Below are positions 2,423 through 18,609 of a stretch of DNA of 21,926 nt, piece after piece; position 1 is the stretch's first letter; every line of letters starts with the position of its first letter. Both the position numbers and the translations under genes were made by a program. The notes beneath the pieces are model-generated. The model was not told where the DNA came from and did not search any database. It saw only the letters and a program-made list of their open reading frames with translations. Source of the stretch: a virus; IMG/VR virus record IMGVR_UViG_3300042486_000362, positions 1 through 21,926 of that record. The stretch is one strand, 5' to 3'.

Positions 2423-5005
2423 TTACTTACTCTTTGATGCTCTGTTCTTAGCATTCAACTTAGCAATCTCTAGGTCATTGTCCTGATTTCTAAGTTCAGC
2501 ATCTATCTTTCTGTTCTCTAAAGCCATCTTATCTGAATGAGCTTTATTATCTTTTTGAATCTCTGATAGCTTAAGTGCATAGTCAGATGCTGCTCTAGAC
2601 TCTTCAGACTGTAACTTAGAGATCTCTAATACATCAGGAACACCTGACGCATCTGCATCTGTCAAAGGACCAGCTTTAGATTCAGCCGCAATAAGAGCAA
2701 TTTCTTTCTTATTGATACGATCAAGTTCAGCATTGTAGTTATCATTAGCCATCTTCTCTTGTTGAGCTTGGGCAGTTTGTTGCATCTGAGCTTGAGCAAT
2801 TTGTTGTTGTTGTTCAAGTTGCTGCTGTTGCATCTGCATTTGTTGATCTTGCATTTGCTCTTGACGATCTTTCAATGTCTTGAACACCTTCTTCATCTCT
2901 CTCATAGAGTTAGTTGAATATAGCTCAATAACATCGTGTAATGATCCACCATTCTGTAGAACAGCTTGAGATAAGCTACGAATCTCACCAAACATTTGCT
3001 TATCCTCTGGACGATTAGTCAAGAACACTTTAAGATCACGGAACTTAAGATCAGATCCATTCACCTGTACAAATGCTGACTCACCCTCATTAGTAATGTA
3101 TGATAGAGTAGATTGTGGCTTAGCACTTTCTATATATAATGATGCATCAATGATTGCTTGGTATAACTGACCTAATACATACTCGTGTGCCACAAATAAT
3201 GGCTCAGTTTGTGAGTATGATTGTGTGATGGCAGCATTAGTACCTGTAGCAGATTCAGAAGCTGCAACAGAACCTAAACGTTGCTTAGACATACCAATTA
3301 GTTCCCAACATTCTTGCTTCAACTGCATAGCTAAGTTGTAACGAGATTGGATCTCCTGTGTACGCGTAAGGTCAATATCACGGAACTGGTTAAATGATGA
3401 TGGAGACTTTAAGTTCTCTGGGCTATCATCAATAAACATTACACCACGGTTACGTGCTTCCATTTCCCAAATGTCAAGAGCATCTTGTGCATCTCCATCT
3501 TTAGGAATAGGTATATGTCTGATTGATGTTAAGTACACCTTACCAACCTCTTTCTCTAACAACTTGTATAATTGATTCATACAAACGTTATAAAGAACTT
3601 GGAACGGCTTCATTAAGTCTACTAAAGACTTAGCCTCTGTATTCTTCACCTCATGCACCAAACCAATGATAGGGCAGTAGTTTAATAACTTGTAAGGTTT
3701 AATGTGGTAGATATCTGGTCCCACTTTGATTCCTTGATACCACTGGTTAATCCATCCCCACTCTAATGATTGTTGCGTAGGAATAGTACCTGACTTATAT
3801 GTCTCATCTACTAGCATAGATTGCTCATTGCCCATATCATCTAAGTAGATAAGCTTACCAATCTTCTTCTTAGAGATCCAATAACAACGAACAACTACAT
3901 ACTTGTATCCAAATGAAGACACATTTGATGTAAGTCCTAAGAAGTCCTTTAATCCATCATTGTTCTCCTTCATCTCTGATTCAATGATCATACGTGTCTG
4001 TAACACAAGAGGATCATATGTATCATACTGCACTGAGTCTTGACCTGGTGTAGCATCTGGATTACCTAGATTAGATTCACGAACGTTAATCAAACCATAG
4101 TCTTGTAGAGATGAACGTAAGTGGTCAATCTCTTCTTTAGTTAAGTCAGGAATAGATTCGATAATCTCAGACAATTCCATAACTTGCACAGTACCAGCAG
4201 CATACGCACCTTGAGCACGTCCTGTAGGATCTGATACATACTTACGATCTGGTGTTGTTAAGAACCAAGTGTTCTTAGGGTTAGCCACCTCAATGTTAAA
4301 TCCAAGCTTAGAGTTATCCTCATAGATGTGATAATACTCACGAGCAGAGATTAACATATCACGGAATGCATCTTCTGATTTCTCTTTAAGAACAAAGTCA
4401 GCTTTGTTAGCTGTCAATACATGGTTAGCCCATTTCTCTGCTACAGATGTATATGAATCAAGCTCATCTTGAACTTGCTCCATTGTCAGTTGCTGTAAGT
4501 CTTCATCTTGTAGTTCTTCTCCTGCTAGTGCAGCTTTCTCTAAAATCTTCTGCTTAGCAGTGGAGATAACATACTCCTGAAGAATACCTGTCTTATATTC
4601 TAACTCTTCAGCTTTACTATCATCATCAAATGCCTTAACACGGAATGCATCAGGTCTCTTTGAAATCTCACCAACAAGCTCATTAAGCGGTGTAGTGATA
4701 ATTGAATACATCTTTACATAAGATGGTAAAGCCAAATCAGCTGTAAGCATATCTGTAAAGCTTCTTACCTCTGGCTCTTGGTAGAAATCCTCAGGACGTA
4801 AGATACCCTTCACTAAGTCATAGTTCTTAACAAACGTATCACGGTTCTTTACATACTCAGCATAAGCCTTGTTTGCAAAGTAGTCCATAGTATTCTTGAT
4901 CCAACTCTCATCTTGCTTTTCCTTCTCAGTCTTAAACTGATCAGGGAAGATGTTTAGATACGCATATCTAATCGTTGCATCTTTTGTATATCTAATAATT
5001 GCCAT
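2423..5005 (-). CDS. Portal protein, crAss-like
   Basis: An 860-aa protein directly after TerL; its ATG shares one base with the TerL stop (TAATG). Portal proteins form the dodecameric ring at one capsid vertex through which DNA is packaged. The size and gene order (TerL, portal, scaffold, capsid) fit large crAss-like portals, and residues about 60-700 form the mixed-fold body. Residues 713-752 are an extreme Gln-rich run (QDQQMQMQQQQ type), followed by a long charged helical tail to residue 860. Such a tail could line the barrel inside the head or contact internal proteins. The CAG/CAA repeats are a possible site of length change. The call relies on position and overall character, not on a short catalytic motif. 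Confidence 0.85.
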   Translation of the reverse strand: MAIIRYTKDATIRYAYLNIFPDQFKTEKEKQDESWIKNTMDYFANKAYAEYVKNRDTFVKNYDLVKGILRPEDFYQEPEVRSFTDMLTADLALPSYVKMYSIITTPLNELVGEISKRPDAFRVKAFDDDSKAEELEYKTGILQEYVISTAKQKILEKAALAGEELQDEDLQQLTMEQVQDELDSYTSVAEKWANHVLTANKADFVLKEKSEDAFRDMLISAREYYHIYEDNSKLGFNIEVANPKNTWFLTTPDRKYVSDPTGRAQGAYAAGTVQVMELSEIIESIPDLTKEEIDHLRSSLQDYGLINVRESNLGNPDATPGQDSVQYDTYDPLVLQTRMIIESEMKENNDGLKDFLGLTSNVSSFGYKYVVVRCYWISKKKIGKLIYLDDMGNEQSMLVDETYKSGTIPTQQSLEWGWINQWYQGIKVGPDIYHIKPYKLLNYCPIIGLVHEVKNTEAKSLVDLMKPFQVLYNVCMNQLYKLLEKEVGKVYLTSIRHIPIPKDGDAQDALDIWEMEARNRGVMFIDDSPENLKSPSSFNQFRDIDLTRTQEIQSRYNLAMQLKQECWELIGMSKQRLGSVAASESATGTNAAITQSYSQTEPLFVAHEYVLGQLYQAIIDASLYIESAKPQSTLSYITNEGESAFVQVNGSDLKFRDLKVFLTNRPEDKQMFGEIRSLSQAVLQNGGSLHDVIELYSTNSMREMKKVFKTLKDRQEQMQDQQMQMQQQQLEQQQQIAQAQMQQTAQAQQEKMANDNYNAELDRINKKEIALIAAESKAGPLTDADASGVPDVLEISKLQSEESRAASDYALKLSEIQKDNKAHSDKMALENRKIDAELRNQDNDLEIAKLNAKNRASKSK

Positions 5006-7038
5006 TATGTAAACAGTTTACGTTTATACTTTCCTCCACCAGAATTAAACACACTGGAAGATTCTGTAAATAATTTATTGTTTTTGTTTCTTTTCTGCAT
5101 TGACATCACCCTTGCATCACCTGTACCACCAATTTTTCCCATAATAGGATCCATCTTCATGGCCATAGCTACAGCTAGTTCTGCTGCAATGATACGGTCA
5201 AAGTTACCCTCCTCATTATACTGTATCATTTCTTCTAACAATACAGGATCAAATATCTTAACCATCCCTTTAGTCTCAGAGATTATGTTACCATCATCAT
5301 CTCTTTCTGTAACAAGAGTTTCCTCTGTATACTTCTTCAAACAACCATGTAAGAAGTCTCTAATCTTCTCAGATGATCTATGTATACCATAGTCACGTCT
5401 TACAGTGGTATTAGGTACAATCTCTTTCAACCAATCTGGTTGTCTCTCTAGATAGTGTGCATCATTCTTAGAGATCATGTAATCAATGAATGAAATCTCA
5501 TCATTCTCGCACAATGTTCTAGCATTGTAATATTTGATAAGAAGTCGTGCTTGCTCCTCCCACGTTTCTTTCTTATCAGGACGTGCACAGTACGAAGCTA
5601 CGAACATATCTTGATATTTCTCGCCTGTTAACTCATGCATCCTTTTATATATGTATACAGAACCTAATGAACTTGAGTAGGATGATTTACCTTGGCGGTA
5701 TGGATCGACTCCTGCTACATACAGTCCATAAGGAGGTGTATCAATAGGAAACTCATATATCACTACAGGAGCATCCTTTAAATCTGAATTCTTAAGAGGG
5801 AAGTTGGAGATGGGCAGCTTGTCTGTGAATTCATGCTTAACACCTTCTCCATCATCATATAGCACGACTGGTATGCCTGTACGCTCTTGTTGTAAGAGTC
5901 TAGCCTTTTGTCGTTTTGCTCCCTCTATATCGAATATATTGGTATCTTCATTCAAGAAAATATCATCCACTTCTTGTGGATAGTACATCTTCTCCTTTAG
6001 ATAGGCAACCCTATCACCAGCTTTCTTAAGCCTCTCTAAATTGTCGTTGGTTATTTTTGTGGCAAGCTCTTCATTGGATACTAACATCTTAATGTTATGA
6101 AGATCATTACCCTCTGGTAAGTCTAGATATGCACCAAGAGTTGATTCCTCTTTAGCTTCCATTCTAAACTTATGTGAAATGAATAGCCCGTGTACACGAG
6201 TTTCATCTTTGGCATTGTTGTATTCTAAGAAATTGTAGTTACCTACATCAAACATCAAGGACTTAGCGTCCATGAATTTCTTCATATCCCCACCAGTTCC
6301 AGTAAGAATCGGTGCACAACCCCAGCCAAAGGGTGTTGTGAAACCTGGAACAGCAGCTTGGAAGCCTCGTAGGAAAGATCCCTTACCAATTTCATCTATA
6401 ATTAGTCTTCTAGGCTTTGTACCTGCAATAGCCTCCTCGTTATTACCTTCGTCAAGGTTACGTATTAATATCTGTGAGAAGGGGATACGTTGTCCACCTC
6501 TTGTCTTTACACCTAATGTTACCTGATTCTTCCAGTTATCCTCAACTCTCTGCCACTGCCAAGCAGCTGGTAAGTGGTTAAGTCCTTTGTCAATCTTGTC
6601 TGTAATCAGCTTAATATCGGCTGCATTCAGACCAGCAATAATGTTCTGTGAGTTCTCATCAAATGTAGCACCATGTGACACATAAGAAGCCTCTAGAACA
6701 GACTTAGCAAAACGTCTGATTCCTAGAATAACTAGGCCCTTACGTTCTTGTTGTGCTCTGTCAATCTCTGTAGATACTACCCACTCATTATCTCTTAGTG
6801 ATGGGTTAGCATATTTCTGTGCGATACGTCCATAATCATCTATAACGTCCACCTCTGTATGCCATGCATTTAGATGCCAATATAGGAATGGATTAATGTA
6901 TGTATCTCCCATCATAGCTCCGTTCTTACAGAGCTCCTCATGGAATGCAAAGAAAGCATCATATTCCTCAGACTCCTTGTCTGGAAGACGCTTCTGGCAC
7001 ATTAACCAATCCTTATAATCTATCTTAAGCAGTTCCAC
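5005..7038 (-). CDS. terL: Terminase large subunit (ATPase and nuclease)
   Basis: The 677-aa packaging motor that translocates DNA into the prohead and cuts the concatemer. The N-terminal ATPase has a terminase-type Walker A, GIRRFAKS (residues 106-113), and Walker B RLIIDE (211-216) with the catalytic Glu at 216. The C-terminal RNase H-like nuclease shows the expected acidic triad: D445 in VAGVDPYRQG, E511 in the ENDE segment and D615 in NFDRIIAAE. The length is normal for a full subunit and both domains look intact. The start overlaps the upstream small gene by 14 bases and the end overlaps the portal start by one, so translation is probably coupled through the set. This is the most secure functional call of the late block. 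Confidence 0.95.
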   Translation of the reverse strand: MELLKIDYKDWLMCQKRLPDKESEEYDAFFAFHEELCKNGAMMGDTYINPFLYWHLNAWHTEVDVIDDYGRIAQKYANPSLRDNEWVVSTEIDRAQQERKGLVILGIRRFAKSVLEASYVSHGATFDENSQNIIAGLNAADIKLITDKIDKGLNHLPAAWQWQRVEDNWKNQVTLGVKTRGGQRIPFSQILIRNLDEGNNEEAIAGTKPRRLIIDEIGKGSFLRGFQAAVPGFTTPFGWGCAPILTGTGGDMKKFMDAKSLMFDVGNYNFLEYNNAKDETRVHGLFISHKFRMEAKEESTLGAYLDLPEGNDLHNIKMLVSNEELATKITNDNLERLKKAGDRVAYLKEKMYYPQEVDDIFLNEDTNIFDIEGAKRQKARLLQQERTGIPVVLYDDGEGVKHEFTDKLPISNFPLKNSDLKDAPVVIYEFPIDTPPYGLYVAGVDPYRQGKSSYSSSLGSVYIYKRMHELTGEKYQDMFVASYCARPDKKETWEEQARLLIKYYNARTLCENDEISFIDYMISKNDAHYLERQPDWLKEIVPNTTVRRDYGIHRSSEKIRDFLHGCLKKYTEETLVTERDDDGNIISETKGMVKIFDPVLLEEMIQYNEEGNFDRIIAAELAVAMAMKMDPIMGKIGGTGDARVMSMQKRNKNNKLFTESSSVFNSGGGKYKRKLFT

Positions 7039-7922: not shown

Positions 7923-8197
7923 AGCTTACTTAATTCTTCGTTTTCTTCGTTTGTCACATGTGCCTTCCAATAACTTCTTGGACAATCACATGACATACAC
8001 TTCGTCTTTGCTGACAATGGACATCCACAATCTGTGCAATGCTCATCTATACGTATAGAAGCATGCTTACTAGAATGGAATGGGCAATCTCTGCAAATTG
8101 CTAATCTATCTTTAGAGACCTGTAATATCGTCTCCTTCATTTGTGCTGGCGGAATCAACTTGTTCCTCCAACCCTCGTAAATCTGTGAGAAATTCAT
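7919..8197 (-). CDS. Cys-rich zinc-binding protein
   Basis: A 92-aa protein with a dense cysteine array: C35-x2-C38, H41, C54-x2-C57-x-C59, C67-x2-C70-x-C72. This pattern can hold one or two zinc ions in a ribbon or rubredoxin-like knuckle. The N-terminus MNFSQIYEGWRNKLIPPAQ resembles the GW-N-L-P lead-in of small Cys-rich proteins I associate with Bacteroidetes phages, which argues for the ATG at 8197 over the internal Met20 at 8140. That start puts the first 86 bases inside the HU/IHF-like gene in another frame. The role is unknown; binding of nucleic acid or of a partner protein is plausible. Confidence 0.75.
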   Translation of the reverse strand: MNFSQIYEGWRNKLIPPAQMKETILQVSKDRLAICRDCPFHSSKHASIRIDEHCTDCGCPLSAKTKCMSCDCPRSYWKAHVTNEENEELSKL

Positions 8198-8534
8198 CGC
8201 TTATGTTTGGTTTAAGTAAAGCTATGTGATCGACCATGTCATTGTAAATGACTGTAGCCTTTCTTATTTGTTCTGCTGTTGCCTCTGGATGCGTAATAAT
8301 AGAATGCATATCATGCTTCTTTATCAAATACGTCTTTAATCTCCTGGCAGCTTTCTTCTCATTGAACATGAATTTACCAAATCCACTGATCTCGACACTC
8401 TTGTTAGTGTCCATGGCTTGGTTTGCAGAAATGAACTGGTGATTAATAACAGCCTCAATAGTCTTCTCACTCACTAACAGCTTACTAGCTATAGTTCTAA
8501 TGAGAAACTCCTTATCTGTCATTGGTCTAGCCAT
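8112..8534 (-). CDS. HU/IHF-family DNA-binding protein
   Basis: A 140-aa protein with the HU/IHF fold signature. An N-terminal helical pair (residues about 7-40) is followed by the strand-turn VEISGFGKFMF (47-57), matching the family's GFG-F motif, then a basic beta-arm-like segment with KKAARRLKTYL. A C-terminal extension of about 55 residues beyond a standard 90-aa HU is present. HU/IHF proteins bend DNA, and crAss-like phages are known to carry IHF-like subunits near their structural genes. It overlaps the upstream regulator by 8 bases and the downstream zinc protein by 86 bases. A role in genome condensation, packaging or late regulation is inferred. Confidence 0.85.
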   Translation of the reverse strand: MARPMTDKEFLIRTIASKLLVSEKTIEAVINHQFISANQAMDTNKSVEISGFGKFMFNEKKAARRLKTYLIKKHDMHSIITHPEATAEQIRKATVIYNDMVDHIALLKPNISDEFLTDLRGLEEQVDSASTNEGDDITGL

Positions 8535-16659: not shown

Positions 16660-18609
16660 ATGAAAGTATTTATTTATGACATTGAAACGATGCAAGAGCT
16701 GTTTCTCATACATGTCTACGATCCACAAGAAGACAAGGGATATGATTTCTTAATCAGTCAATGGCATAATAACTTTGATGGTTTTATCAAACTTCTACAC
16801 GACAACCCTGAGCACTATTGGGTAGGTTATAACAATCTACGCTTTGATGCACAGGTTGTTGAGTGGGTGTTACGTAGTTATGAGGAGTGGCATGAAGCTA
16901 GTGGTCTTGAGATTACAGCTAAGATTGCACAGAAAGCAGCAGACGTTATCCATGATGCTAACTTTGAGGTATTCCCTGAGTTCAGAGAAGACCAGCTATC
17001 ATTCAAACAGATAGACTTATTCAAGGTGAATCACTATGATAACAAGAATCGAATGGTGAGCCTTAAAAGGCTAGAGTTCGAGATGGATCTAGAGAACATC
17101 GAGGAGATGCCTATACATCACACAAAGACAAACATGACCAAGGAAGAGATTGCTCTCACTATGGACTATTGTCGTAATGATGTGCATGCAACCTATGAGT
17201 TCTACAAGATTACTACAGGGAACTGTGATCATCCATTATACAAGGGTAACAATCAGATAGAATTGCGACAAGATATCGAAGAAGAATTTGGTATACCATG
17301 TCTAAACTATTCTGATAGTAAGATTGGTGATGAGATGATTAAGAAGTATTATTGTGAACAGAAAGGTATTAAACTAACAGAGCTCCCTAAGAAAGGATTC
17401 TTTCGTAAGGAGATTAGAGTGAAGAACTGTATTGCAGATTATGTTGAGTTCAAGACACCACAGCTAAAACTCTTCCTAAAGAAGATGAAAGGCACAGTGC
17501 TTGGACTACAGGATGATTTCAAAGAGCACATTACATTCTATGATAATGTGTATTCATTCATGAAAGGTGGTTTACATACAGAAAACAAACCAGAAATATT
17601 TGAAGCTGATGAGAATTATGAGATCATTGATTGGGATGTGTCTAGCTATTATCCTGCTATTATCATTAATAATAAGCGTTATCCCTCTCATCTTGGTAAA
17701 GAGTTCCTTTTGGGTTATAAACAAATGTTTGACCGCAGATTGGAGCTCAAGCCCCAGGCAAAGAAGGACAAACGCATCAAAGGTATTGTTGGTGCTCTCA
17801 AGCTTGCTGTTAATAGTGTGTATGGCAAGTCTAGCGATATGCAAAACTGGATTTATGACAGGCAGCTTACTATGTTTACAACTATTACTGGCGAGCTCTC
17901 TCTATTTATGCTTATTGAAGCTTACGAACTAGAGGGCATACATGTAATATCAGCTAACACTGATGGTGTTACTATTAGAATCAAGAAGACAGACATATAC
18001 AAGATGCATGAGATTAATGCATGGTGGTCAAAACTAACACAATATGAACTCGAAAGAACAGATTACAGTAAAATCATTTTCTCGACTGTTAACGATTACC
18101 TTGCGATTAAAACAGATGGAGAAGTTAAGAAGAAAGGTGATTTTCTCACTGACTTTGAACTGCATAAAAATAAGTCTGGCAGGGTTGTGCCTATCGCTCT
18201 TGAACAGTACTTCATTAATGGTATTCCTGTGGCTGACACCATTCGGTCTCATAGAAATATATATGATTTTGCTATGCGTCAGAGGGCTACAAAGGATTTC
18301 CACTTTGAGGGCAAATCTGATAGAGGAACAACAGTCTATAACAAGCTTATTAGATACTATGTATCCATCACTGGGGAAAAACTACTCAAAGTTAAGAATG
18401 AAGAGTGTGATTCAAGAGCAGCAGCTATATCACAAGTAGAAGCAGGAGATTGGTTGATGACAGTATGTAATCACCTATCACCAAAGCATCCACTAGATAA
18501 CATTAATCATTCTTATTATATCGAGAAGGCAGAACGTATTATTAACAAGATTAATTATCAGGGCAAGAAAGTACCTGTGATTGATCCTAATCAACTAAGT
18601 TTATTTTAA
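16660..18609 (+). CDS. B-family DNA polymerase with clamp-binding C-terminus
   Basis: A 649-aa replicative DNA polymerase. The 3'-5' exonuclease motifs are present: Exo I YDIET (D7, E9), Exo II NNLRFD (D63) and Exo III YCRND (Y170, D174). Polymerase motif A is WDVSSYYP (D326), motif B KLAVNSVYG (381-389), motif C ANTDG (D435) and the KKKG segment is 490-493. All catalytic residues look intact. The short length and TDG variant of motif C fit the phage PolB group found in part of the crAss-like phages. The last five residues are QLSLF, the canonical bacterial sliding-clamp-binding pentapeptide, as also found at the C-terminus of E. coli Pol II (QLGLF). I infer recruitment of the host beta clamp. 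No terminal-protein gene is obvious, and the palm region uses codons unlike its flanks. Confidence 0.95.
   Translation: MKVFIYDIETMQELFLIHVYDPQEDKGYDFLISQWHNNFDGFIKLLHDNPEHYWVGYNNLRFDAQVVEWVLRSYEEWHEASGLEITAKIAQKAADVIHDANFEVFPEFREDQLSFKQIDLFKVNHYDNKNRMVSLKRLEFEMDLENIEEMPIHHTKTNMTKEEIALTMDYCRNDVHATYEFYKITTGNCDHPLYKGNNQIELRQDIEEEFGIPCLNYSDSKIGDEMIKKYYCEQKGIKLTELPKKGFFRKEIRVKNCIADYVEFKTPQLKLFLKKMKGTVLGLQDDFKEHITFYDNVYSFMKGGLHTENKPEIFEADENYEIIDWDVSSYYPAIIINNKRYPSHLGKEFLLGYKQMFDRRLELKPQAKKDKRIKGIVGALKLAVNSVYGKSSDMQNWIYDRQLTMFTTITGELSLFMLIEAYELEGIHVISANTDGVTIRIKKTDIYKMHEINAWWSKLTQYELERTDYSKIIFSTVNDYLAIKTDGEVKKKGDFLTDFELHKNKSGRVVPIALEQYFINGIPVADTIRSHRNIYDFAMRQRATKDFHFEGKSDRGTTVYNKLIRYYVSITGEKLLKVKNEECDSRAAAISQVEAGDWLMTVCNHLSPKHPLDNINHSYYIEKAERIINKINYQGKKVPVIDPNQLSLF

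Follow-up and report, generated by a model that had tools for sequence, protein, structure and literature searches.

The family B DNA polymerase (PolB) of the crAss-like phage studied here ends in the pentapeptide QLSLF, which is probably a working beta-clamp-binding motif. Judged from the sequences compared, it would tether the replicase to the host clamp DnaN and provide processivity without a phage clamp, and this strategy is probably common to PolB and to PolA, the alternative polymerase of these phages. What we observed directly is the box itself, how well it is conserved, its place on a variable tail and the parallel box in PolA, and that neither a phage clamp nor a loader for one is detectable. 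The crAss-like phages rank with the most abundant human gut viruses and also occur widely elsewhere. In the open-access papers searched, we found no description of the processivity mechanism of crAss-like replicases and no statement of a box in their PolB or PolA, with an earlier mention in a 2011 survey of viral replicases (10.1093/nar/gkr564) being possible. A lone clamp box on a phage PolB is of a known kind; what is new is that the box is widely conserved across the crAss-like PolBs and is paralleled in the unrelated PolA.

The phage and its polymerase

The stretch of DNA that was analyzed (the window, 21,926 nucleotides) is an entire public record, a 22-kb fragment. The following features were recognized in it.

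2423..5005, minus strand: portal protein (phrog_6547 / P22_portal; phrog_6547 E about 1e-97)
5005..7038, minus strand: terminase large subunit (TerL), with TerL matches to crAss-like phages
8112..8534, minus strand: IHF/HU-like DNA-binding protein, with Pfam and PHROGs matches
16660..18609, plus strand: crAss-like PolB, 649 aa, with intact catalytic motifs and a PHROG 1252 match
18508..18555, plus strand: final core helix of the polymerase, residues 617-632, from the alignment and the AlphaFold2 model
18556..18591, plus strand: variable, apparently flexible linker between the core helix and the box, residues 633-644, from the alignment and the AlphaFold2 model
18592..18606, plus strand: C-terminal beta-clamp-binding box QLSLF, residues 645-649, from sequence reading and conservation in relatives

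The portal and TerL matches place this phage among the crAss-like phages, as the earlier note had proposed. The TerL matched those of Crassvirales, Cellulophaga phi17:2 and Lbo-JY46, and an IHF/HU-like protein is reported as a usual member of the structural block in crAss-like phages (PMC7886860). The closest named TerL, at about 39-40% identity, is that of the Leptolyngbya phage Lbo-JY46, which infects a cyanobacterial host, and it would therefore be unsafe to presume that our phage infects Bacteroides. A search of sequenced cellular genomes for relatives, as a clue to the host, gave no match. The host range known for the group would become wider with a crAss-like phage that infects cyanobacteria. 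Several crAss-like relatives showed many in-frame TAG/TGA codons or very short standard-code ORFs (the portals of G022 and G036, the TerL of G019 and the PolBs of L096 and L098), a pattern consistent with the stop-codon reassignment described for the group.

The ORF at 16660..18609 was assigned to PHROG 1252 'DNA polymerase' in a PHROGs profile search (E=1.4e-139), while Pfam gave no match for the 649-aa protein. All exonuclease and polymerase motifs of the B family are present (DIE at residue 7, NNLRFD at 58, YCRND at 170, DVSSYYP at 326, KLAVNSVYG at 381 and NTDG at 433), the last of these being a divergent motif C. A Crassvirales PolB matches the protein over its full length at ~29% identity. 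With intact motifs, a divergent motif C and this full-length match, the enzyme fits the crAss-like, EpsilonN-like clade.

The earlier note had also suggested protein priming. A phi29-like, protein-primed PolB would owe its processivity to the enzyme itself, and the tail would then be incidental. This explanation is next to impossible in the light of the matches obtained, and we found no direct evidence in its favor. The nearest solved folds, by profile and by model, are the archaeal family B polymerases and Pol alpha, which are nucleic-acid-primed enzymes, and no protein-primed PolB family was matched in Pfam or PHROGs. The crAss-like PolBs have been placed in the EpsilonN-like group, which requires a nucleic-acid primer (PMC7544198), and a primase of the DnaG type is encoded by most crAss-like phages (PMC7544198, PMC7886860). 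In the earlier interpretation, the clamp box, the crAss-like identity and the lack of a detectable clamp have stood, and protein priming has been given up.

The C-terminal box of PolB

The codons at 18592-18609 (CAA CTA AGT TTA TTT TAA) read Q-L-S-L-F-stop, which confirmed the five terminal residues named in the earlier note, and the protein ends in ...VIDPNQLSLF. The peptide is an exact match to the beta-clamp consensus QL[S/D]LF and fits the Q-x-x-L-F pattern at its three fixed positions (1, 4 and 5). The probability that a protein ends in a clamp box by chance, calculated from composition, is ~2e-5, and the box at the end of PolB is more than a chance occurrence.

A scan of IMG/VR for close relatives of PolB yielded 80 loci with 61 distinct full-length proteins of 74-100% identity. 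The box, in the form Q[LMI][SNT]L[FW], was kept at the C-terminus in all 61, several of which share recent ancestry, so that they do not represent 61 independent events. The Q at position 1 and the L at position 4 were invariant, whereas position 2 was L, M or I, position 3 was S, N or T, and position 5 was F or W. The clamp motif has an alternative form of six residues, and the QLSLGF of one near relative agrees with it; in a few others, one additional residue followed the box. The linker in front of the box was about twice as variable as the box itself in these near relatives (entropies of 1.13 and 0.57 bits, respectively), and many synonymous changes were seen in the box codons. These two features together indicate that purifying selection acts on the peptide. 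The motif was also specific to the polymerase: the 80 related loci contained 538 distinct ORFs of at least 100 aa, and the 61 of these that ended in a clamp box were without exception PolB or pieces of PolB.

The conservation extends to distant homologs. The PolBs of gut Crassvirales, at about 29-31% identity, still carry the box, often moved 1-5 residues inward (QLSLWDFS, QLSLWD, QMSLWD, QLSLFDDQTC, QLELF, QLTLF, QLTIFDD and QLNLFNFDEY). The columns of Q645 and L648 were invariant across 38 PolB sequences, down to 29% identity. The polymerases of the Bacteroidota phage Panino and its relatives end in QTSLF, QTKLF or QGELF. The Crevaviridae phage cr127_1 is an exception, as its PolB (L207:2576-3700) has only the non-canonical QLDFDLF, followed by a long tail. 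We also observed that this extra tail, which lies downstream of QLDFDLF, ends in DDSDDLPFN and resembles the acidic tip of SSB proteins. The PolBs of Kharn and cr127_1, used as queries to widen the PolB survey, gave no matches. The C-terminus of PolB can therefore be read as a canonical beta-clamp box conserved to ~30% identity, which agreed with the consensus box recognized in the earlier note. Free variation of these five residues among homologs, which would have spoken against that reading, was not seen.

It could be argued that the box is a chance or vestigial C-terminus that is inherited without function, as it is missing in some relatives of the same polymerase family. This is strongly disfavored and very improbable, since all 61 near relatives kept the box despite synonymous codon changes and a variable linker, the Q and L remained invariant at 29-31% identity, other ORFs lacked the box, and PolA shows a parallel box.

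The AlphaFold2 model of PolB, built with 38 sequences, had a mean pLDDT of 79.5 and placed the last core helix at residues 617-632. The pLDDT was about 50-70 over the last 20 residues and fell to ~50 at the end. Burial of the tail in the polymerase core, which would have spoken against the earlier interpretation, was not seen in the model. The low pLDDT after the last core helix and the variable linker suggest that the box lies in a flexible, exposed tail. The box-less PolB relatives of TaPaz and Sasha end soon after the equivalent of this helix, which suggests that the tail is an appendage.

The clamp box of E. coli Pol II is C-terminal. Pol II and the bacterial PolB group G3 (EpsilonN-like) are likewise family B enzymes with a beta-clamp box (PMC12926913), but they are cellular, whereas the crAss-like PolB, whose motif C reads NTDG, belongs to a divergent branch of the EpsilonN-like enzymes and is not matched by Pfam. 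The identical pentapeptide QLSLF is found at the extreme C-terminus of another replicase, the bacterial Pol III PolC, where it binds DnaN and appears to be essential in B. subtilis (PMC12309361). In that species, the C-terminal QLSLF of PolC binds DnaN with micromolar affinity, and a truncation was not recoverable (PMC12309361). PolC is a cellular enzyme of family C, while the crAss-like enzyme is viral, of family B, and a predicted client of DnaN.

Search for a phage clamp

Searches of the 22-kb fragment with the profiles PF02767, phrog_947 and PF02916 revealed no clamp, in agreement with the earlier note, and PF02767 found none in 15 larger relatives. The profile phrog_947, which represents a divergent family of phage clamps, was used as the main test because PF02767 detects phage clamps weakly. 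As a control, it detected DnaN or PCNA in 14/14 control genomes, including archaea (PCNA). It gave no match in any crAss-like record searched, among them 11 named Crassvirales genomes, Lbo-JY46 and six relatives of the phage larger than 100 kb, or in 24 PolA-bearing contigs. The T4-type clamp profile PF02916 had no match above the cut-off and one subthreshold match, and a search of the crAss-like records for the clamp loader DnaX found none above the cut-off. The absence of a clamp means here that none is detectable, as a very divergent clamp could escape the profiles and IMG/VR records may be incomplete.

The same search found phrog_947 clamps in the siphophages CAjan, Kharn and Kmi2C, in each of which the clamp gene is immediately followed by a PolB that also belongs to the phrog_1252 family. 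The clamp genes are located at L119:2859-3812 (CAjan), L105:1-681 (Kharn) and L106:1-855 (Kmi2C). These three phages encode their own clamp, whereas none is detectable in the crAss-like phages. The PolBs of Kharn and Kmi2C have box-like C-termini (QVDMF-A and QIMFF, respectively), and the PolB of CAjan is without a C-terminal box in spite of the adjacent clamp gene.

These siphophages give some weight to the explanation that the PolB box binds a phage-encoded clamp that is too divergent to be recognized or lies outside the sequenced part. They carry a divergent clamp beside a related PolB, and Pfam barely detects or misses these clamps, PF02767 scoring only 22 bits on that of CAjan. We consider this explanation unlikely, because phrog_947, which succeeded in every control genome, found nothing in complete Crassvirales genomes or in the relatives larger than 100 kb, the PolB box fits the generic bacterial consensus, and the family searches gave no adjacent candidate gene. 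Docking on the host DnaN is the reading that we prefer and, as far as sequence comparison can tell, it is well supported.

The PolB relatives of TaPaz, Nitrincola 1M3-16, Sasha, Barba30A, RHph_Y52 and Fpv3 have neither a box nor a detectable clamp. It suggests that this polymerase family can function without either and that tethering is not universal. A correlation in which the lack of a clamp gene predicts the box was considered and is not clean, as several of these non-crAss PolB relatives lack both, and it was not used as proof.

The box in PolA and a shared docking strategy

Yutin et al. reported in 2021 that the polymerase of a crAss-like phage is either PolA or PolB, with no apparent case of both together, and that the phages switch between the two, often in situ, which they called enigmatic (PMC7886860). 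Our cross-searches with PolA and PolB likewise found one polymerase type per genome. The PolAs also carry a box. In gut crAss-like phages, it reads QGDLF, QQDLF, QGNLF or QGDLW, and in Lbo-JY46 it reads QLNLF. Counted by eye on extracted segments, the pattern Q-x-x-[LMIF]-[FW] was present at this site in 37 of 44 distinct crAss-type loci, and its last two residues were kept in six more. Distant crAss-like PolAs (~26% identity) have QLDMF, QTDMF or QLSLF. In an alignment of 30 PolAs, the Q, D, L and F of the box had entropies of 0.6-0.9 bits, compared with 2-3.3 bits at most neighboring positions of the loop. The motif Q-x-[DSN]-L-F thus appears as a conserved island in a variable thumb-loop insertion. 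When the PolA of crAss001 was used as a single-sequence query, it matched only itself.

A crAss-type portal was found in most of the PolA contigs tested, and three portal-negative contigs had a PolA without the box. The 'KQxLLF' of these portal-negative PolAs was considered as a candidate box but is probably the ordinary thumb motif INSxxKQxxLLF, and they were counted as box-less. The closest relatives of our TerL outside the PolB clade of the phage (G032, G029, G030 and Lbo-JY46, at about 40-42%) all carry a PolA, with QLDIF, QTNLF, QTDLF or QLNLF. The PolA of Lbo-JY46 (L090:36976-39939) is interrupted by an insertion that encodes a LAGLIDADG endonuclease and divides it into two pieces.

The AlphaFold2 model of PolA (mean pLDDT 92.7) placed the box in a lower-confidence loop, residues 241-264, between two thumb helices. 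When the sequences are aligned, E. coli Pol I lacks an insertion here, whereas T7 polymerase has a large one, known as its thioredoxin-binding domain. Through this domain, T7 polymerase borrows the host thioredoxin as a processivity factor. It is likewise a phage polymerase that uses a host processivity protein, and its insertion aligns with that of the crAss-like PolA, but it binds thioredoxin via a domain of roughly 70 residues, while the clamp box of the crAss-like PolA is carried on a short loop. The gene that directly follows PolA in cr108_1 (L107:3431-3700) is annotated as thioredoxin. This is of note, since the thumb site where this PolA has its box is the one at which thioredoxin is bound in T7 polymerase. 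The actinobacterial PolA2 (APEX), which also belongs to family A, has a loop that bears a beta-clamp box; this box is in the vestigial exonuclease domain, whereas that of the viral crAss-like PolA is in the thumb (PMC12926913). The first bacterial A-family clamp box was reported only in 2026, at a site different from that of the crAss-like PolA (PMC12926913).

We propose that the flexible C-terminal tail of PolB would dock on the host DnaN ring, with QLSLF entering its hydrophobic pocket, and that the host clamp loader would place this ring on DNA. The tethered phage replicase would then gain processivity without a clamp of its own. The same docking may be used by two unrelated polymerases, by PolB via its C-terminus and by PolA via its thumb-loop insertion. 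For the PolB box, we infer physical binding to DnaN, a gain in processivity and a need for the box during infection. Other proteins that use the DnaN pocket would face competition from a strong box, and the PolB tail could in principle bind DnaN mainly to interfere with the host, in competition with DnaE or repair proteins, and not for phage processivity. This is improbable, as it is the phage's own polymerase that carries the box, and the alternative PolA has one too, and tethering of the replicase fits this placement better than a separate inhibitor does.

The presence of a conserved clamp box on both alternative polymerases, together with no clamp gene, makes the dependence on the host DnaN directly testable. 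It also suggests that clamp docking may be a shared feature that permits the exchange of polymerases. We are inclined, with some reserve, to regard docking on the host DnaN as a fixed feature of the crAss-like replisome that makes PolA and PolB interchangeable and enables their switching. If true, it offers a mechanism for the mutual replacement of PolA and PolB that has been called enigmatic (PMC7886860), and the pocket of the host clamp would be a candidate vulnerability of crAss-like replication.
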